From Clostridia bacterium (GTDB taxonomy: Bacteria; Bacillota; Clostridia; TANB77; CAG-465), in contig JAQUWH010000009.1 of assembly GCA_028692955.1 (NCBI GenBank), forward strand, positions 1 through 55,666: a stretch of DNA of 55,666 nucleotides. The letters are read 5' to 3'. The position numbers and the translations under genes are program-made. Below are positions 3,306-33,591 of this stretch, one piece after another. How positions within the stretch are numbered: the first letter of the stretch is position 1; each line of letters opens with the position of its first letter. Below the pieces are notes generated by a model that searched no databases, was not told the origin of the DNA, and saw nothing but the letters and a program-made list of their open reading frames with translations.

Positions 3306-4388
3306 ATGAGAAAAGTAGCATTAATGACTGCTGGAGGAGATTGCCCAGGTCTTAATAGCGTTATAAAGGCAGTAGTCATGTCTGCACAAAAAAAAGATAT
3401 TGAAATTATTGGCATTATGGATGGGTATAAAGGGTTTGTAGAACAAACCTATGTAAAGCTTGATAAAACGAGTGTATATAACATTGAAACAGAGGGAGGA
3501 ACCATTCTTGGAGCATCTAATAAAGAATGTCCTTTCCATTATCCTGTGGATGATAAAAAGGAACATTATGAAGATATGGTGGAACCTTCAGTTCAAGCAC
3601 TGAAAAAAATTGGCGTAGATGGAATGATTATCATTGGCGGAGATGGAACGTTAGATTCTGCAAGAGTGATTGAAGAACATGGAATGCAAACTATAGGAAT
3701 TCCTAAAACAATTGACAATGATATGGTAGCAAGTAATCCTACAATTGGATTTCAAACTGCAGTAGAAAATGCAGTAGGTGCTATTCGTAAGGTAAAAACA
3801 ACTGCATACTCGCATAGAAGAGTCATGGTGGTTGAAATGATGGGAAGAACATCAGGTTATCTAACATTATATGGTGGTTTTGCTGCTGGTGCTGATATTA
3901 TATTATTACCAGAACTAGAGTATGATTTAGAAGATATTTGTGAAAGAATCAAAGATATCATGAATGGTGGTAAACGTTATGTTATTATTGCTACTTCAGA
4001 AGCAGCAAAAGGAAGAGGAAAAGATGAAACCATCTCTAGAATTGTAAAAGATAGTTTTGAACAAAAAAGATATGGTGGTATTGCAGAGAAATTATCACAA
4101 GAAATAGAAGAAAAAACGGGCTATGAGTCCAGACCTGTTGTACTTGGCCATATTCAAAGAGGCGGAGAACCATGCACTGCTGACATTATACTGGGTGCAA
4201 GACTTGGTGATTATGCGATGAATTTAATTGCAGATGGTAGAACAGGGTATATTGTTGGTGTACAAGACAGTGAATTAATGAAAACAAAATTTCCAAAGGT
4301 AAGAGATGCAAGAATTCTTGACCTTGATACTAACGATGTTTATAGAACTGCAAAGGATATGGGAATATTTTTTGGAGTTAAGGAATAA
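3306..4388 (+). CDS. pfkA: 6-phosphofructokinase, long form with PKTIDND motif
   Basis: A 360-residue glycolytic phosphofructokinase, longer than the usual 320-residue Bacillus/E. coli type. GGDGTLDSAR carries a Gly at the position (E. coli 104) that favours ATP, where PPi enzymes have Asp. PKTIDND carries Lys at the position (E. coli Gly124) typical of PPi-dependent and mixed-clade enzymes. This Gly/Lys pairing is known from actinobacterial ATP-PFKs (group III). MMGRTSGYL and HIQRGG supply the substrate-binding residues. I infer an ATP enzyme of the mixed-substrate clade, probably without the classical PEP/ADP control. It is monocistronic and followed by a tRNA. Confidence 0.93.
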   Translation: MRKVALMTAGGDCPGLNSVIKAVVMSAQKKDIEIIGIMDGYKGFVEQTYVKLDKTSVYNIETEGGTILGASNKECPFHYPVDDKKEHYEDMVEPSVQALKKIGVDGMIIIGGDGTLDSARVIEEHGMQTIGIPKTIDNDMVASNPTIGFQTAVENAVGAIRKVKTTAYSHRRVMVVEMMGRTSGYLTLYGGFAAGADIILLPELEYDLEDICERIKDIMNGGKRYVIIATSEAAKGRGKDETISRIVKDSFEQKRYGGIAEKLSQEIEEKTGYESRPVVLGHIQRGGEPCTADIILGARLGDYAMNLIADGRTGYIVGVQDSELMKTKFPKVRDARILDLDTNDVYRTAKDMGIFFGVKE

Positions 4389-22905: not shown

Positions 22906-22920
22906 AATGAGATATAAGAT

Positions 22921-22958
22921 ACCTCAAAATAGCATATATTGTTTTGAGGTGTATTTTT
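22921..22958 (+). promoter_or_regulatory. Hairpin with embedded ribosome binding site and T-tract before the patatin-1 ATG
   Basis: ACCTCAAAAT (22921-22930) pairs with GTTTTGAGGT (22941-22950) over 10 bp with one terminal T.G pair. It is followed by GTATTTTT and the ATG at 22959. The 3' arm contains GAGGTG, the only Shine-Dalgarno sequence for the downstream gene. It can serve as the cls terminator and, in read-through RNA, would mask the ribosome binding site. The same arrangement occurs before two nearby genes. Confidence 0.75.
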
Positions 22959-23834
22959 ATGAGTTTAGGCCTTGCTTTAAGTGGTGGGGGAACAAAAGGT
23001 GCTGCGCATATAGGTGTAATAAAGGCACTACTAGAAGAGCATATTGATATAGGATATATATCAGGAACTAGCAGTGGTAGTATCATTGCGTCGCTATTTG
23101 CACTAGGGTATAGTACAGAAGAAATGAAAGAACTGTTTCAACAAACATGTAGTAAAATAATAGATTTTGATTTAATGATTCCATTTAAAATTATCAAATC
23201 TATTATAACAGGAAATTTACAAGTAAAGGGAATTGCAAAAGGAAAAAAGTTAGAAAGCATTCTTTCTGCCTGTTGCTATGAAAAGAAGATAGTTGACATT
23301 AGTCAAATTAAAATGCCAATTGCGATTCCTACTGTGGATATAAGGACAGCAGAAGTAATTTACTTTACCAATAGGAAGATATCTTGTCCACGAAGTATGT
23401 TGTATGATGATACCCCTACTTGTAATAATACAGGAAAATTAGCTCAAATTGTAAGAGCAAGTTGTAGTTTACCGGGTGTGTATGAACCAAAAATAATAGG
23501 AGATAATGTATTAGTAGATGGTGGCATTCGTATGAATACTCCGGTTTCCATTTTAAAAAGAATTGGAGCAAGTAAAGTACTTGCTGTTAGCTTTGATAGA
23601 AACAAGAAGAAAGAAACAAGTTATGATAATTTAGTTTGCATTTCAATGCAATCTTTTGATATTATGGGACATCAAGTAAATCAAACTGAGGTTGAAGAAG
23701 CAGATTTAGTGATACGACCTAAATTAAAGGACATGAATGTATTAAACTGTGGGGAAATAGAAAGCAGCATAACAAGTGGTTACCGTGCTACTAAAGAGGC
23801 AATTGGATCGATACGTGAATTAGTAGGAATATAA
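22959..23834 (+). CDS. Patatin-like phospholipase 1
   Basis: A 291-residue bacterial patatin (RssA-like) with a Ser-Asp catalytic dyad. The oxyanion loop is GGGTKGAAHIG (residues about 9-19), the nucleophile elbow is GTSSGS (about 39-44), and the catalytic Asp is in VDGGIRMNTPV (about 188). It is predicted to act as a lipid acyl hydrolase; the substrate is unknown. No signal peptide, so it is cytosolic or membrane-peripheral. It follows cardiolipin synthase, which may point to membrane lipid turnover. A second patatin lies 1.4 kb downstream. Confidence 0.92.
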   Translation: MSLGLALSGGGTKGAAHIGVIKALLEEHIDIGYISGTSSGSIIASLFALGYSTEEMKELFQQTCSKIIDFDLMIPFKIIKSIITGNLQVKGIAKGKKLESILSACCYEKKIVDISQIKMPIAIPTVDIRTAEVIYFTNRKISCPRSMLYDDTPTCNNTGKLAQIVRASCSLPGVYEPKIIGDNVLVDGGIRMNTPVSILKRIGASKVLAVSFDRNKKKETSYDNLVCISMQSFDIMGHQVNQTEVEEADLVIRPKLKDMNVLNCGEIESSITSGYRATKEAIGSIRELVGI

Positions 23835-23840
23835 TGTTTA

Positions 23841-23877
23841 ACACCTTTTATGATAAAACAATAAATGGTATTTTTTC
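23841..23877 (+). terminator. Probable terminator of patatin-1
   Basis: An imperfect stem (AACACCTTTTAT around 23841-23855 with ATAAATGGTATT around 23861-23872; two mismatches) is followed by a TTTTTT run. The remaining stretch up to 24079 is noncoding AT-rich DNA that holds the pilin-1 promoter. Confidence 0.55.
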
Positions 23878-23968
23878 GAAATTTCAAGACTTCTATTTCT
23901 ATAATCTATGTCATAAAAGTACAAACTGCATATGTGAGAGATATCCAAACAAATCTTATCGCAAAATG

Positions 23969-23997
23969 TTGCAAAAAGTAATAGTATAGGATAAAAT
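23969..23997 (+). promoter_or_regulatory. Promoter of pilin-like gene 1
   Basis: TTGCAA 23969-23974, 17-nt spacer, TAAAAT 23992-23997. A leader of about 75 nt leads to AGGAGG and the GTG start. Confidence 0.6.
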
Positions 23998-24079
23998 ATA
24001 AATTGATGTGTTATATATTGGCTTATAAAATATGTAAACAATTATGGATCAGCTTAATTAAAATAGGAGGAATGGAACA

Positions 24080-25066
24080 GTGAAAACAAAAGAAGCAAAC
24101 AAGGAAGGTATATCATTAATAGTATTAGTTATAACAATTATTGTAGTAATTATACTAGCAGCAGCAGTGATACTGACACTAAACAACAATAATCCAATTA
24201 ATAATGCCAAAGAATCTACGTTTAAAAATAATGTTGATACATATAAAACTACTTTATCTCTGTATATATCAAATAAGATATTAGAAGATGATAAATTTAA
24301 TATAAGTACCATTAAAATAGAAGATATACCAACGATTGATGCAGATAAATTTGAAATAAAAGGTGGAGAATTAGTAATAAAAGAAACAGCTAGTAATCAA
24401 GAAAAAGAGTGGGCAACAAGTTTAGAAATCTGCCAATATAATGAATTAAATGATGAAATAGTACAATTTGAAAATGGAGTAAAAGGAACAGAGATGGAAG
24501 TGGTAACTAGTGAAGATACTATAGTTACTAGATGTGGAAGAAATTTATGTCCTAGTTTTAACCCTTTTTCTAAGTATGGTATAACAGCAACAAATCTTGA
24601 TGATGGTTCTTTAAATTTGAATGGTGTATTCGATTCAGCTATTGCTCTAGATTTATCAAGTGTATCATTAAAACTTCCAGGAAATAATATCTATTATTTG
24701 TCTAAAAATAGTACTGTAAATGGATTATATGTTCAAGTAAATAGAATGAGATTAGGTACACAAATTGCTTTAGGTGGAACATATGATTCGTATCAAAAGA
24801 ATACTATACAAGTAAATGATTATCAAGTAGGTGATGTTATAAGGCCATTTTTAGGATTTAGGCCAGGAGTAAGTTTTGATAATGAGAATATATCATTTCA
24901 ACTTGAACTTGGAAATGTGTATCATCCATATGAAAAATATCAAGGTGAAACCTATACAATCAAATCCAATACCCCAACAAAAATCCCATTGTTAGATGGA
25001 TGTAATACACTTTTTGCGGAAAATGGAACTATTAAAGTAAAATATATTGCAAAAGGAAATATGTAA
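24080..25066 (+). CDS. Pilin-like surface protein 1 with phage-tail-like outer domain
   Basis: A 328-residue protein. A short basic leader ends in Gly10, then a prepilin-style hydrophobic helix ISLIVLVITIIVVIILAAAV, and then NNNNPI. The residue at mature position 5 is Val, not the usual Glu. The middle (about 45-135) is variable. The outer part has RCGRNL and, near the C-terminus, QLELGNVYHPYEKYQGETYT and FAENGTIKVKY. That layout closely resembles the end regions of phage tail/minor structural proteins (G-R/K-N-L ... QLE-G ... YEPY-G-T-Y). No pilus assembly gene is present. The start is GTG 24080 behind AGGAGG. A paralogue lies at 33815. Confidence 0.75.
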   Translation: MKTKEANKEGISLIVLVITIIVVIILAAAVILTLNNNNPINNAKESTFKNNVDTYKTTLSLYISNKILEDDKFNISTIKIEDIPTIDADKFEIKGGELVIKETASNQEKEWATSLEICQYNELNDEIVQFENGVKGTEMEVVTSEDTIVTRCGRNLCPSFNPFSKYGITATNLDDGSLNLNGVFDSAIALDLSSVSLKLPGNNIYYLSKNSTVNGLYVQVNRMRLGTQIALGGTYDSYQKNTIQVNDYQVGDVIRPFLGFRPGVSFDNENISFQLELGNVYHPYEKYQGETYTIKSNTPTKIPLLDGCNTLFAENGTIKVKYIAKGNM

Positions 25067-25151
25067 ATAATAAAATGAAAGTATCACTAAAGTTCAAATG
25101 TTTAAAGTATGTAATAAAAAAATAAAAATAATGTAGATATTGATTTATTTC

Positions 25152-25190
25152 CCTCACATATGGTATAACTATACCATGGAGGTATTTTTT
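25152..25190 (+). promoter_or_regulatory. Hairpin abutting the ribosome binding site before patatin-2
   Basis: ATGGTATA (25160-25167) pairs with TATACCAT (25170-25177) around a two-base loop. CCTC 25152-25155 can further pair with GAGG 25179-25182, which is the Shine-Dalgarno sequence. TATTTTTT and the ATG at 25191 follow. The plan matches the hairpins before patatin-1 and dpaA, although here the core stem and the T-tract are separated by GGAGGTA. Confidence 0.65.
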
Positions 25191-26372
25191 ATGCCTAATA
25201 AAAAAGTAAGTAAAATAAGAGTAGGGGATGAGAAAATTGCATTATCACTGGAAGGTGGTGGCGCAAGAGGAGCTTATCAAATAGGAGCAGTCAAGGCGTT
25301 ATTTGAACATGGATACAAATTTGATGCGGTTGTAGGTACGTCAATTGGCGCTATCAATGGAGCATATATTGCACAAAATGAATTTGATAAGATATATAAT
25401 ATGTGGGAGAGTATGTCATTTAAGGATTTATTTGACTTAGACAATGATATTATGAAAAGAGCATTACTAGTTGATTTAGATATTGATTCTATCAAATATC
25501 TATCTAAAAAACTGGGTGAAGCTGTAAAAAATAAAGGACTAGACACCGTTAGAATGAGAGAAATACTAAATGACGGTATTGATGAAGAGAAATTAAGAAA
25601 TTCACCTATACTATATGGCCTTGTCACTATGTGTATTAGTGATATCAACGGAGAAGAAAAGTTTATTCATGATATACCAGAAGGCAAAGTTGTGGATTAT
25701 ATAATGGCTAGTTCTAATCTTCCTGTTTTCAAAAGATCCATTATAGATAATAAAAAATATTTAGATGGTGGTGCTTGGGATAATTGTCCTGTTCATATGT
25801 TAGAAGAAAAGGGATATAGAAAAGCAATTGTCATTAGAGCTCATAAACGAATACGCATCAGGGATTACAAGAATATTTTAAAAAGAGGAAATATTACACT
25901 CAATATGATTGAACCTATTGACACTTTACCAAGTATTCTTAACTTTGATAGCTCAAATTTGAAAGAAGAAATGAAACTTGGCTACTATGATGCTTTAAAA
26001 TATATTCAAGATTTGGATGGCTTTCGTTATTATTTTAACAATTTAAAAGAAGAGGATATCTTAACAATGCTACATAGAGTAAATCCTTTAGCAATAGAAA
26101 AATTAGCAAAATTACTTAGAGTTAGGTTAGTCAAAGGTGAAACTATTTATGAAACGCTGATTGATAAAATCATACCGTTACTAGTACAAAAAACAAAAGA
26201 AAAAGCAGAACAGAGTACAAAAAACGCAGTAATAGCAATAGTGGAACATATTTTACTTAAGAACCAAGTAGAGCGATACAAAATATATAATTTTAAAGAT
26301 GTTATTACTTTAAGTGGTGCTAAACAAGATACTAAAGATCCTTTAGAGTTATTTGTCTCTTTGCTATTGTAA
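25191..26372 (+). CDS. Patatin-like phospholipase 2
   Basis: A 393-residue patatin-family protein, longer than patatin-1. The oxyanion loop is GGGARGAYQIG (about residues 21-31), the nucleophile GTSIGA (about 47), and the catalytic Asp in LDGGAWDNCPV (about 189). After the catalytic core, residues about 230-393 form a charged alpha-helical C-terminal region without recognised motifs (EKAEQSTKNAVIAIVEH). The start ATG 25191 is fixed by GGAGG 25178-25182. A longer reading would cross the hairpin. Only 48 nt separate it from the next gene, dpaA, so the two may share a transcript controlled by the intervening hairpin. Confidence 0.9.
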   Translation: MPNKKVSKIRVGDEKIALSLEGGGARGAYQIGAVKALFEHGYKFDAVVGTSIGAINGAYIAQNEFDKIYNMWESMSFKDLFDLDNDIMKRALLVDLDIDSIKYLSKKLGEAVKNKGLDTVRMREILNDGIDEEKLRNSPILYGLVTMCISDINGEEKFIHDIPEGKVVDYIMASSNLPVFKRSIIDNKKYLDGGAWDNCPVHMLEEKGYRKAIVIRAHKRIRIRDYKNILKRGNITLNMIEPIDTLPSILNFDSSNLKEEMKLGYYDALKYIQDLDGFRYYFNNLKEEDILTMLHRVNPLAIEKLAKLLRVRLVKGETIYETLIDKIIPLLVQKTKEKAEQSTKNAVIAIVEHILLKNQVERYKIYNFKDVITLSGAKQDTKDPLELFVSLLL

Positions 26373-26381
26373 TTTTTTATG

Positions 26382-26420
26382 AATTCATTCCATATGATGA
26401 TACTATGGGGTGAATTTTTT
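26382..26420 (+). promoter_or_regulatory. Terminator-like hairpin containing the dpaA ribosome binding site
   Basis: AATTCATTCCATA (26382-26394) pairs with TATGGGGTGAATT (26404-26416) over 13 bp with two T.G pairs and a 9-nt loop. Six T (26415-26420) run straight into the ATG at 26421. GGGGTGA in the 3' arm is the only plausible Shine-Dalgarno sequence. As drawn it is both a good intrinsic terminator for patatin-2 and a mask for dpaA translation. Confidence 0.8.
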
Positions 26421-27203
26421 ATGAAAAAATATTGTATTATTGGAGATGATAATAGAAGTAATTATATTAGAAAAATATATACAGATTTAGGTGTTAAAAT
26501 AACTGATTATTTCAAAGCAGATTATGTGATAGCACCAATACCTTTTAGCCGTGATGGTATTCGTATCACGGATACAACGATAAACTGTGAAGAATTTATA
26601 ACTGCAATAGAGGATAAAATATTGTTTACTGGTGCTATAAAAGAGAGTATAAAAAAGAAATTAAAAAACATCAAATACTATGATTTGATGGAAATGGATG
26701 ATGTAGCAATTCTTAATGCGATACCGACTGCAGAAGGAGCTATTTTAAAAGCTATTGAAAACTCAGATATAACGATTCATGGTTCTAATTGCCTAGTCAT
26801 GGGATATGGTAGAATTGGTAAAATACTTGCTAGTATGTTAAAAGGGATTGGAGCCAATGTATATTGCGAAGCAAGAAAGAAAAAAGATTTAGCTTTTATC
26901 GAAGCTTATGGATATCATAAAGTTGCACTGGAAGATATTAATAATTGTTTATCACATATGGATTATATTTTTAATACCATACCAATTCAATTATTAGATG
27001 AGCAAAGATTGCATTTGGTTAAGAAAGATACAATTATCATTGATCTTGCCTCCGCCCCTGGTGGCATTGATTTAAAAAAAGCAAAAGAATTAGGACTTAA
27101 TGTTATATGGGCTTTATCTTTACCGGGGAAAGTAGCACCAAAAACGGCAGCTATTTATTTAAAAGATATAATTGATAAAATCATCAAGGAAGAATCGCTA
27201 TAA
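26421..27203 (+). CDS. dpaA: Dipicolinate synthase subunit A (DpaA/SpoVFA-like)
   Basis: A 260-residue Rossmann protein with the B. subtilis SpoVFA signatures: NAIPTAEGAILKAI, ITIHGSNCLVMGYGRIGK (nucleotide loop G-x-G-x-x-G), DLASAPGGID and LPGKVAPKTAA. SpoVFA/B make dipicolinic acid in the mother cell during sporulation. It is shorter than SpoVFA (about 297), mainly in the N-terminal half. The usual partner dpaB (spoVFB) is not next to it; a DHH-type gene follows after a terminator. The call of family is strong; sporulation itself is inferred and needs the partner genes elsewhere. Confidence 0.88.
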   Translation: MKKYCIIGDDNRSNYIRKIYTDLGVKITDYFKADYVIAPIPFSRDGIRITDTTINCEEFITAIEDKILFTGAIKESIKKKLKNIKYYDLMEMDDVAILNAIPTAEGAILKAIENSDITIHGSNCLVMGYGRIGKILASMLKGIGANVYCEARKKKDLAFIEAYGYHKVALEDINNCLSHMDYIFNTIPIQLLDEQRLHLVKKDTIIIDLASAPGGIDLKKAKELGLNVIWALSLPGKVAPKTAAIYLKDIIDKIIKEESL

Positions 27204-28786: not shown

Positions 28787-28794
28787 ATATAAAG

Positions 28795-28821
28795 TTAGCA
28801 CTCATAACATGAAAGTGCTAA
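28795..28821 (+). promoter_or_regulatory. CIRCE operator (HrcA binding site)
   Basis: TTAGCACTC - 9 nt - AAGTGCTAA. This is the CIRCE inverted repeat (TTAGCACTC-N9-GAGTGCTAA) with one change, G to A, at the inner position of the right half. It lies at the transcription start and just ahead of the hrcA ribosome binding site, so HrcA should repress the whole operon in the absence of stress. Confidence 0.95.
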
Positions 28822-28832
28822 AAGGTGATTGT

Positions 28833-29858
28833 ATGAATTTGGACGATAGAAAAAAGAAAATATTATCATCTGTTGTAGAAGATTATATTTCATCTGCTGA
28901 ACCAGTAGGTTCTAAAACATTAGTGGATAAGTATCATTTGGAATATAGTAGTGCTACAATAAGAAATGAAATGAAGTTATTAGAAGAAGAAGGCTTTTTA
29001 GAGCAACCACATATTTCAGCAGGTAGGATTCCATCTACAAAAGGGTATCGCTATTACGTTGATAATTTAATGAAAGAACAAAAATTATCGATGGTTGATA
29101 TTAGTTATATTGATAATAGTATTACTGGTTTTGGAGATACGGAAAAATTACTAGAGCAAGCTGCTGATGTTATTTCAAAGATATTGTTAAGACCAACAGT
29201 GCTTACGCTAAAACAACAAGACTTGCTTGAGAACATTAAAATTGTAAAAGTATCTGATAAGTTATTACTTATTATTATTTTATCACAAAATGGTACAGTA
29301 AAAGATTGTTTTGCAAAGCTTACCGATGTAGTACAGGATCAAATAATAGATGAATTAACAGAAGTATTAAATCAAAGTTTAGTGGGTACTCCACTTGAAA
29401 ACTTAAGTTTAGTTTTAAATAATGTTATTGCTAAAGAATTAAATAATTTCTCATTTGTACTAGATAAAATATGTGAGAGTATTAAATATGAAATGGAAAA
29501 AGATTGCAAAAAACTAAATGCAAATGTGGAAACTATTTTAGATTTACCTGAATTTTCAGATGCAGAAAAAGCAAAAAACTTTGTAAATATGATTTCTACC
29601 AAAGAAATTATAGATGATACGATTGAAAAAGCAATATCAAATGACCTGGGTATTATCATTGGTTCTGAAAGTAAAGAAGTTATGTTAAAAGATTGTAGTA
29701 TTATTTCACTTGATATACAGAAAAATAAAAAGCATATTGGGAAGATATCTGTTATCAGTCCCAAAAGACTTGATTATTCAAAAACGATATCTACATTAAA
29801 ATATATTAATAGTAAATTTAAAAATTTGCTACTTAATGATAAAGAAGAAGGGGGATAA
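28833..29858 (+). CDS. hrcA: Heat-inducible transcription repressor HrcA
   Basis: A 341-residue repressor of class I heat-shock genes. The N-terminal winged-helix domain includes SSAEPVGSKTLVDKYHLEYS and SATIRNEMKLLEEEGFLEQPH, with SAGRIPSTKGYRYYVD following. The C-terminal GAF-like dimerisation region covers about 100-341. The start is ATG 28833 behind AAAAGGTG. A longer in-frame reading from 28758 would begin inside the promoter and is rejected. It controls the adjacent CIRCE element and so its own operon. Confidence 0.96.
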   Translation: MNLDDRKKKILSSVVEDYISSAEPVGSKTLVDKYHLEYSSATIRNEMKLLEEEGFLEQPHISAGRIPSTKGYRYYVDNLMKEQKLSMVDISYIDNSITGFGDTEKLLEQAADVISKILLRPTVLTLKQQDLLENIKIVKVSDKLLLIIILSQNGTVKDCFAKLTDVVQDQIIDELTEVLNQSLVGTPLENLSLVLNNVIAKELNNFSFVLDKICESIKYEMEKDCKKLNANVETILDLPEFSDAEKAKNFVNMISTKEIIDDTIEKAISNDLGIIIGSESKEVMLKDCSIISLDIQKNKKHIGKISVISPKRLDYSKTISTLKYINSKFKNLLLNDKEEGG

Positions 29859-30502: not shown

Positions 30503-32338
30503 ATGTCAAAAGTTATTGGAATAGATTTAGGAACAACTAACTCATGTGTTTCTGTAATAGAAAATGGTGAACCAGTTGTAATACCTAATGCAGAAGGAGC
30601 AAGAACAACGCCATCTATTGTTGCATTTGCAAAAAATGGAGAAAGACTTGCAGGTCAAGTAGCAAAACGTCAAGCTGTTACAAATCATGATAGAACAGTA
30701 ATGTCTGTTAAAAGAGATATGGGAACAGATAAAAAAGTTAAAATTGATGATAAGGAATATACACCACAGGAAATTTCTGCTATGGTTTTACAAAAATTAA
30801 AATCAGATGCTGAAAATTATCTTGGTGAAAAAGTAACACAAGCAGTTATCACTGTACCGGCTTACTTTAGTGATTCACAAAGACAAGCTACAAAAGATGC
30901 AGGTAGAATTGCTGGTCTTGAAGTATTAAGAATTATCAATGAACCAACAGCAGCATCTCTTGCTCATGGTTTTGATAAAGACACAGAACAAAAAATCATG
31001 GTATATGACCTTGGTGGCGGTACATTCGACGTATCTATTTTAGATATTGCAGATGGTGTTTTTGAAGTTATGGCTACATCTGGTAATAACAAACTAGGTG
31101 GAGACGATTTCGATGAAAGAGTTATTAATTATCTTGTTGCTGAATTTAAGAAAGATAGTGGTATTGATTTATCAAAAGACAATATGGCTATGCAAAGATT
31201 AAAGGAAGCTGCTGAAAAAGCTAAAATAGAACTTTCTTCAGTAATGCAAGCTCAAATTAATCTACCATTTATTACAGCTGATTCAACAGGACCAAAACAT
31301 TTAGACATTACATTAACTAGATCTAAATTTGAAGAATTAATTTCTGATTTAGTAGAATCTACAGTTGAACCTGTTAACCAAGCTATGAAAGATTCAGGTC
31401 TTACATTTGATAAAATTGATAAAATATTATTGGTTGGTGGTTCTACACGTGTTCCACTTGTACAAGAAACAGTAAAAAGAATTACAAATAAAGAACCATA
31501 CAAAGGTATCAATCCCGATGAATGTGTTGCTATTGGTGCAGCTATTCAAGGTGGTGTATTAACTGGTGAAGTAAAAGATTTAGTATTATTAGATGTTACT
31601 CCACTATCACTTGGTATTGAAACTTATGGTGGTGTATTTACTAAATTAATTGATAGAAATACAACAATACCAACTAAAAAATCTCAAATATTTAGTACAG
31701 CTGCTGATGGTCAAACATCTGTTGAAGTGCATGTATTACAAGGTGAAAGAGAAATTGCATCTTACAATAAAACTTTAGGAAGATTTAGCTTAACTGGTAT
31801 TCCACCAGCTCCAAGAGGTGTTCCTCAAATTGAAGTTACATTTGATATTGATGCTAATGGTATCGTTCATGTTACAGCTAAAGATATGGCAACTAATAAC
31901 GAACAAAAAATTGCTATTACAGCTAGTACAAATCTAACAGAAGATGAAATACAAAAAGCTGTAAAAGAAGCAGAAGCACATGCAACAGAAGATAAGAAGA
32001 AAAAAGAAGAAGTTGAAGTTAGAAATAATGCTGATTCTTTAGTATATAATACAGAGAAAACTTTAAAAGAATTAGAAGGAAAAATTTCTGATGAAGAAAA
32101 ATCAAAAGTTGAAGTAGAACTTGAAAGCGTTAAAAAAGCATTAGAAGGAACAGATACAGAAGCAATTAAATCTGCAAGCGAAAAATTAACTCAAGTATTC
32201 TATGAAATATCTCAAAAATTATATGCACAAGCAAATCCACAAGGAGGAGCTTCAGAACAAACTACTACTGCAGAGGGAACTGAAAATGTTGTACATGATG
32301 CAGATTACAAAGTAGAAGATGATAATAACAATAAATAA
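30503..32338 (+). CDS. dnaK: Chaperone DnaK (Hsp70)
   Basis: A 611-residue Hsp70. [13 protein letters not shown] is phosphate loop 1, [15 protein letters not shown] phosphate loop 2, and [13 protein letters not shown] the adenosine motif. The linker [13 protein letters not shown] joins to the substrate-binding domain. The helical lid ends in an acidic tail, [13 protein letters not shown], in place of the more common EEVK-type end. The 88-bp gap after grpE is AT-rich with a TTGACT at 30426-30431 that could be an internal -35, but no convincing -10 pairs with it. AGGAGG precedes the ATG. Confidence 0.98.
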
Positions 32339-32366: not shown

Positions 32367-32400
32367 TAAAGGGTGCAAAGAAACTTTTCACCCTTTATTT
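32367..32400 (+). terminator. Partial terminator between dnaK and dnaJ
   Basis: TAAAGGGTG and CACCCTTTA pair across a 12-nt loop, followed by TTTA. It probably lowers dnaJ expression relative to dnaK by leaky termination. Confidence 0.7.
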
Positions 32401-32421
32401 AGAATATAGGGGGAAATTTTT

Positions 32422-33591
32422 GTGGCAGATTCAAAAGATTATTATGGATTATTAGGTGTTTCAAAAGATGCTACAGACGAAGAATTAAAAAAAGCATATA
32501 GACAAATGGCAAAAAAATATCATCCTGATGCTCAGCAAGGTGAAGCTGCTAAAAAAGAAGCAGAAGTTAAATTTAAAGAAATAAATGAAGCTTATTCTGT
32601 ACTTTCTGACAAAACAAAGCGTGCTCAATATGATAGATTCGGTTCTAATTTTGAACAAGCTGGTTTTGGCGGTGGAGCCGGTGGCTATGGCGGTTTCGGT
32701 GGTTTTGATTTTTCAGGCTTTGGAAATGGTATGGGTGTTGATATTGATTTAGATGATATTTTAGGAAGTGTATTTGGTGGAGGCTTTGGAGGATTTGGTG
32801 GAAAAGCCAAGAAAACAGGTCCATCAAAGGGCGCTGATTTAAGATATAACATGAATATCACTTTTGAAGAGGCTGCTTTTGGAACAAAGAAAGAAATTAA
32901 TGTATCAAAAAATGAAATATGTGATGTTTGCCATGGAAATGGTGCAAAACCAGGAAGCAATGTTGTTACTTGTGATATGTGTCATGGAAGTGGTAAAGTA
33001 CAAACAACACAAAATACCATCATGGGAACTTTTGCAACAGTAAAAACTTGTGAAAAATGTGGTGGTGAAGGAAAAGTTATTACGGAACCATGTGAAAAAT
33101 GTAATAAACGAGGTACGATTCGAAAAACAAAGAAAATTGAAGTAAATATACCAGGTGGTATTGATAATGGCCAAGCAATTTCGATTCATGGTGAAGGAGA
33201 TTGTGGTAAAAAAGGTGGCCCAGCAGGCGATTTATTTGTTGTTGTTAATGTAGAACCACACAAGATATTTACAAGACGTGGATTTGATATATTAGAAACA
33301 ATTAGTGTTCCATTTGCTAAATTAACGCTAGGTGGTATTATCAAAGTTCCAACGCTGGAAGAAGAAGTGGAATATACAATACCAGAAGGAACACAAACAG
33401 GAACAAAATTTAAATTAAGAGAAAAAGGAATTCAAAACATACATGGTAGAGGTAGAGGTAATCTGGAATTTACTGTGATAGTGGATATTCCTAAAAAATT
33501 GACTGATGAACAAAGAGAGATTCTAACTCAATTTGCCTCTTCTTTTGGGGATGAAGTAAATAGCAAGAAAAAAGGATTCTTTGGAAGATAG
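32422..33591 (+). CDS. dnaJ: Chaperone DnaJ (Hsp40)
   Basis: A 389-residue class A DnaJ. The J domain (1-70) has the HPD motif in KKYHPDA. A Gly/Phe-rich region follows (about 75-130), then four zinc repeats (CDVCHGNG, CDMCHGSG, CEKCGGEG, CEKCNKRG; the last is CxxCxxxG) and the C-terminal substrate-binding domain. The start is GTG 32422 behind AGGGGGAAA, giving MADSKDYY. It ends with a KKKGFFGR tail, typical of Bacillota DnaJ. Confidence 0.97.
   Translation: MADSKDYYGLLGVSKDATDEELKKAYRQMAKKYHPDAQQGEAAKKEAEVKFKEINEAYSVLSDKTKRAQYDRFGSNFEQAGFGGGAGGYGGFGGFDFSGFGNGMGVDIDLDDILGSVFGGGFGGFGGKAKKTGPSKGADLRYNMNITFEEAAFGTKKEINVSKNEICDVCHGNGAKPGSNVVTCDMCHGSGKVQTTQNTIMGTFATVKTCEKCGGEGKVITEPCEKCNKRGTIRKTKKIEVNIPGGIDNGQAISIHGEGDCGKKGGPAGDLFVVVNVEPHKIFTRRGFDILETISVPFAKLTLGGIIKVPTLEEEVEYTIPEGTQTGTKFKLREKGIQNIHGRGRGNLEFTVIVDIPKKLTDEQREILTQFASSFGDEVNSKKKGFFGR

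Follow-up and report, generated by a model that had tools for sequence, protein, structure and literature searches.

The window analysed here, a 55,666-nucleotide stretch of contig JAQUWH010000009.1 from a Clostridia bacterium (assembly GCA_028692955.1), carries two genes for patatin-like phospholipases (patatin-1 and patatin-2) and dpaA, which encodes subunit A of dipicolinate synthase. Each of these genes starts behind a short hairpin that involves its own Shine-Dalgarno (SD) sequence (Table 1). An earlier reading of the region, made from the sequence alone (the sequence-only reading), had described the order hairpin, SD, T-tract and ATG at all three sites and had proposed that the shape, not the sequence, is what is repeated. 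Sequence inspection and folding confirmed this order upstream of patatin-1, patatin-2 and dpaA (leaders J1, J2 and J3), with the SD in or touching the 3' arm and five or six T before the ATG, and the arms of J1, J2 and J3 proved unrelated to each other. None of 200 dinucleotide shuffles folded as well as the 41-nt core of J1, and only 2 of 200 did so for J3, whose stem energy was matched by none of 100 shuffles. J2, already regarded as the weakest case, was marginal, with 9 of 200 shuffles folding equally well. The DpaA product is short (260 aa) in the window and in relatives, and its N-terminal domain is matched only partly.

Table 1. Features of the three leaders, their genes and two further genes behind strong hairpins in the home genome (positions in the window, or within the locus named).
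Feature	Position	Strand	Description
J1 hairpin, patatin-1 leader	22919..22952	+	14 pairs including G-U; arms 22919-22932/22939-22952; 6-nt loop; SD in 3' arm
J1 candidate -10 box CATATATT	22933..22940	+	Loop and start of 3' arm; of uncertain sigma class; predicted from sequence and positional enrichment of CATA-type boxes
J1 SD GAGGTG	22946..22951	+	In 3' arm (sequence)
J1 T5 tract	22954..22958	+	Adjoins ATG at 22959 (sequence)
Patatin-like phospholipase 1	22959..23834	+	Pfam PF01734, 1.5e-32
J2 hairpin, patatin-2 leader	25152..25182	+	8-bp stem 25160-25167/25170-25177 plus outer CCTC 25152-25155/GAGG 25179-25182
J2 SD GGAGG			In outer helix; T6; ATG at 25191
J2 predicted sigma-A -10 box TATAAC (TGGTATAAC)	25164..25169	+	5' arm and loop
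J2 alternative predicted -10 box CATATGGT	25157-25164
Patatin-like phospholipase 2	25191..26372	+	Pfam PF01734, 1.2e-30
J3 hairpin, dpaA leader	26382..26416	+	13 bp; arms 26382-26394/26404-26416
J3 predicted sporulation-type -10 box CATATGAT	26391..26398	+	End of 5' arm and loop
J3 SD GGGGTG	26407..26412	+	Within 3' arm (sequence)
J3 T6 tract	26415..26420	+	Adjoins ATG at 26421 (sequence)
dpaA, dipicolinate synthase subunit A	26421..27203	+	NCBIfam NF006162, 271.5 bits (cut-off 261); TIGR02853 match below cut-off
spoIIM	L096:5719-6321		PF01944, 3.2e-11; TIGR02831, 2.9e-15, below that model's cut-off
asd	L056:3838-4827		TIGR01296 above cut-off

The home genome was surveyed over 1.18 Mb of its 1.25 Mb, using the SD-bearing starts among 1026 genes from a simple home-made gene caller. 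The excess over shuffled sequence that had been proposed as a check was found for very strong SD-holding hairpins and not for SD pairing in general (P>=0.9 in 130 cases vs 115.8, sd 8.2, in shuffles). Six hairpins reached a folding free energy (dG) of -10 or lower, where shuffles gave 1.65, and five reached -12 or lower, where 0.55 were expected; hairpins followed by at least four T before the start were likewise more frequent than in shuffles (5 vs 0.55 at dG <= -7). Such hairpins mark a short list of special genes and are no general habit of the genome. Besides patatin-1 and dpaA, the list includes spoIIM and asd (Table 1), a gene for a CmpB-like membrane protein and a metallo-beta-lactamase-fold gene. 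In a sample of about 357 kb from another genus (G035), two hairpins with dG <= -12 were found, compared with 0.05 expected.

Conservation and covariation were then considered in orthologue leaders of the same family. Hairpins of dG <= -7 were found in 26 of the 29 spoIIM leaders that could be used and in 8 of 34 for dpaA. The arm covariation that the sequence-only reading had suggested looking for was present in a 17-sequence alignment of spoIIM-type leaders: across 13 pairs, 95.5% of cells were paired and 10 carried a double change, with a covariation score of 0.316 vs 0.198 in shuffled alignments (reached by 0 of 500), while slid controls were 26-52% paired. A 30-row alignment pointed in the same direction. 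The arms vary among spoIIM leaders and two elements are constant: the SD, held in the 3' arm, and, in the loop, GCATANNATG or a near variant. A covariance model built from spoIIM and asd leaders (R1) matched mainly these leaders together with one DUF3298 gene of the same design in genome G032 (L272); at the few weaker matches whose loci were read, no gene began 3' of the hairpin.

The conserved hairpins have a second common feature, a sporulation-type -10 box CATANNNT, which we take from the B. subtilis consensus to be the type of sigma-E and sigma-K, lying within the loop or 5' arm, 5-7 nt 5' of the SD. This spacing is 5 nt in most leaders of dpaA (21 of 33) and asd (20 of 28) and 7 nt in most of those of spoIIM (23 of 29), and orthologues with and without the hairpin do not differ in it. 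For dpaA, a -10-like box was present 2-12 nt 5' of the SD in 33 of the 34 same-family leaders, and in spoIIM leaders a -35-like box, ATAA, lies about 16 nt upstream. In the home genome, CATA-type boxes are enriched 25-35 nt upstream of starts, strong hairpins occur at 5 of 49 co-directional starts with such a box vs 4 of 333 without, and sigma-E/K-like genes are present, with scores that do not reach the curated cut-off for sigma-K. With the box at this place, each gene's own predicted transcript would lack the 5' arm, and only read-through RNA would fold the mask. When both forms were folded for five home-genome genes, the SD was unpaired at 0.00-0.14 in the read-through form and at 0.38-0.88 in the predicted native form, whose leaders would be 11-20 nt long.

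A hairpin that guards against read-through would be expected only behind a co-directional gene without a terminator of its own. For asd, it was present at 9 of 10 such sites vs 1 of 16 elsewhere (divergent neighbour or separate terminator; p=3e-5), and for dpaA at 8 of 19 vs 0 of 15 (p=0.005). Pooling both gave hairpins in 17 of 29 exposed contexts vs 1 of 31 others, and pooling four families gave 46 of 78 vs 2 of 36, although the related genomes in these counts are not independent.

T-tracts accompany the hairpins. Five or more T directly precede the start in 27 of 44 dpaA, spoIIM and asd leaders with a hairpin vs 5 of 47 without, and in the home genome at 5 of 9 strong-hairpin starts vs 23 of 763 others. 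The feature of an intrinsic terminator, a stable stem directly followed by a T-tract, was thus found at J1, J3 and these 27 leaders, not in all members: T5 is missing from the other 17, including spoIIM of the home genome (GGTGATAACTATG; dG -19.8), and in these the SD is still paired. Asd leaders without a hairpin often retain four T. Termination is probably part of the role of the element, with the SD mask as its constant part and the T-tract as a frequent addition, a contrast that is partly built in, as the hairpin search required overlap with the SD.

Hairpins, covariation, the fixed spacing of -10 and SD, the link with upstream orientation and missing terminators, and the co-occurrence of T-tracts were all computed directly, and with them we consider it probable that the element is a merged terminator, promoter and ribosome-binding-site mask that insulates a gene against read-through from its neighbour. 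The start sites, sigma factor, termination and translational block that we infer would combine as follows. Each conserved site would be an insulator of about 45 bp in which hairpin, promoter -10 and ribosome-binding site overlap. RNA polymerase arriving from a co-directional upstream gene would transcribe both arms, so that the hairpin folds and the SD is hidden, and where a T-tract is present the hairpin would also terminate transcription intrinsically. In sporulating cells, the -10, whether in the loop or in the 5' arm, would be used by a sigma-E/K-type holoenzyme, and the native transcript, beginning at or just 5' of the SD and devoid of the 5' arm, would be translated from its leader of about 11-20 nt. 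Late genes (dpaA, spoIIM, the sporulation-promoted asd and probably patatin-1) would in this way be kept off in growing cells despite read-through. The sequence-only reading had each site act as terminator and off-switch at once, in a hairpin that must be opened or bypassed, and had suspected a regulatory class that is perhaps sporulation-linked. Both effects are kept here, the T-tract being no obligatory part; the predicted -10 inside the hairpin points to one definite bypass, for which no signal has to open the stem; dpaA and spoIIM are indeed sporulation genes; and SD masking as a genome-wide class finds no support.

Several observations weigh against this interpretation. All start sites are deduced from motifs. 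Independent contrasts on the gene trees agree with the context rule, at 3 to 0 in asd and about 1.5-2 to 0 in dpaA, or about 5 to 0 together, and their number is too small for significance. In iscS and patatin-1, hairpin and upstream context showed no association, and several leaders of dpaA and iscS lack both a hairpin and a terminator although they are exposed. A 365-kb sample of genome G015 gave a weak excess (6 vs 2.2 at dG <= -7, none at or below -10). The J2 hairpin, finally, is present only in the home genome and is missing from the leaders of patatin-2 orthologues.

Two candidates were dropped along the way. The iscS hairpins of L311, L312 and L321 fit the context rule, which iscS as a whole does not follow. 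Patatin-2 was set aside as a conserved member, L155 and L169 passing the weak threshold through other stems. Several patatin-2 orthologues carry TGATATAAT at a similar position, and both this box and TGGTATAAC look like ordinary sigma-A promoters; with such a promoter, patatin-2 would be a vegetative gene immediately 5' of dpaA, where dpaA would need a guard.

The simplest competitor would see plain intrinsic terminators of the upstream genes, which overlap the next SD through compactness and mask it without a role of its own. The accompanying T-tracts and the ordinary separate terminators often found at orthologues without a hairpin (15 of 34 same-family dpaA leaders) agree with it, whereas the pairing of the SD in leaders devoid of T5 does not, with the reservation on the SD-based search made above, and we regard this explanation as unlikely. 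The dyads also span the promoter, so that at the DNA level they could be repressor operators over the -10, as CIRCE is for HrcA, with the RNA hairpin incidental. A CIRCE-like repeat does lie nearby (about 28790-28832), and the sense-strand RNA is not distinguishably favoured: greater sense than antisense stability was abandoned as proof of a role in RNA when hairpins from shuffled controls gave the same bias and more G-U pairs. However, no CIRCE/HrcA-type repeat is common to J1, J2 and J3, arms differ across genes and orthologues while pairing is retained, and neither the dependence on upstream orientation and separate terminators nor the link with T-tracts is expected of an operator, which makes this reading most improbable.

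A leader opened by a signal, whether RNA thermometer, riboswitch or attenuator, would place the hairpin within the gene's own mRNA and let a cue open it, as the sequence-only reading had in mind. An SD held in a stem is typical of thermometers. Yet an Rfam scan of the window returned one tRNA and no other family, no conserved aptamer or sensor domain was recognised, and the conserved part is the -10 and the SD. This alternative, set aside because the -10-like box lies inside the hairpin and would leave the 5' arm out of the native RNA, appears very unlikely.

The proposed insulator resembles several known systems. It shares with intrinsic (Rho-independent) terminators a stem and T-tract at the end of the upstream gene, and differs from them in that the 3' arm is the SD of the next gene, the loop its -10, and the T-tract sometimes missing. 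In IS10 and IS50, protection from external activation relies on an inverted repeat near the end that hides the ribosome-binding site of the transposase only on read-through RNA; unlike the present elements, these are ends of mobile elements, with no sporulation promoter and no terminator. For T4 gene e (also soc, 49 and I-TevI), longer early transcripts fold an SD-hiding helix, and late promoters just 5' of the ribosome-binding site give RNA without the 5' strand that is well translated (PMC3014915). In B. subtilis, read-through RNA from spoIIG was proposed to fold a large hairpin at sigG (spoIIIG) that prevents translation; this hairpin cannot form in RNA from the sigG promoter (PMC5942855). 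As for gene e, the SD here is paired in long RNA initiated upstream, judging from the five home-genome genes and covariation; as for sigG, a read-through hairpin precedes a sporulation gene and would be absent from the predicted native RNA. The present hairpins lie behind co-directional genes, and the -10-like box predicted for the gene's own promoter is inside the hairpin, 5-7 nt before the SD. The T4 cases are phage genes with late T4 promoters, whereas the elements described here belong to the chromosome, carry sporulation-type boxes and often the T-tract of a terminator, and recur in orthologues of an uncultured Clostridia family; sigG is a single gene with a hairpin of 20+ bp, as opposed to several other genes with about 13-15 bp and a -10 within the loop. 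Phage T4 and a single Bacillus gene are thus the known precedents. No description of a recurrent use before sporulation genes was found in the literature, which is weak evidence of novelty, as subscription papers were mostly outside the search.

Look-alike structures were encountered elsewhere. The sigE-sigG spacer of this genome (L038, about 3330-3640, G000:C3) contains ordinary terminator-like hairpins, not the SD-masking type of B. subtilis sigG. Among the patatin-1 leaders L123-L152, most relatives have another inverted repeat, AATACAC...GTGTATT, with the SD just inside the loop end, T5-T6 and the start codon, and CATAAAAT overlaps its 5' arm. In G015, a spoVT-like gene (L287, 1570-2109) lies behind CTCAAACA...TGTTTGAG (dG -7.8), whose 3' arm includes the SD. 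Strong SD-holding hairpins whose loop carries a box like TATAAT/TATAAAAT precede an IscS/NifS-like gene in two other genera (L308, 16837-17985, and L321), and given these cases the design may extend beyond sporulation promoters. Within the window, a fourth look-alike belongs to a heat-shock operon: the spacer (32391-32421) between dnaK (30503-32338) and dnaJ (GTG start at 32422) forms a terminator-like hairpin whose 3' arm contains GGGGG, followed by T5 and GTG. The CIRCE-like inverted repeat (TTAGCACTC ... GTGCTAA), directly 5' of a gene start at 28833 and upstream of dnaK and dnaJ, is probably the hrcA operator. The gene between both patatins (24080-25066) encodes a prepilin-like N-terminus (ISLIVLVITIIVVIILAAAVILTL) and matched neither Pfam nor NCBIfam.

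In compact genomes, genes that must be tightly timed are constantly at risk of read-through from their neighbours. If the proposed insulator is real, several genes would use one evolvable solution based on sequence only, and which sporulation genes are guarded could be predicted from gene order alone. It would also provide a compact part for insulated expression, with the promoter in the hairpin loop and the SD in an arm, and annotators could not take a terminator-like hairpin that covers a start codon as proof of a regulated leader. Whether it amounts to a lineage-wide architecture of small-genome Clostridia, a fused element of about 45 bp that evolves whenever a late gene lands behind a co-directional neighbour and so a general silencing rule for developmental genes, is a tentative extension to which we give slightly less than even chances.

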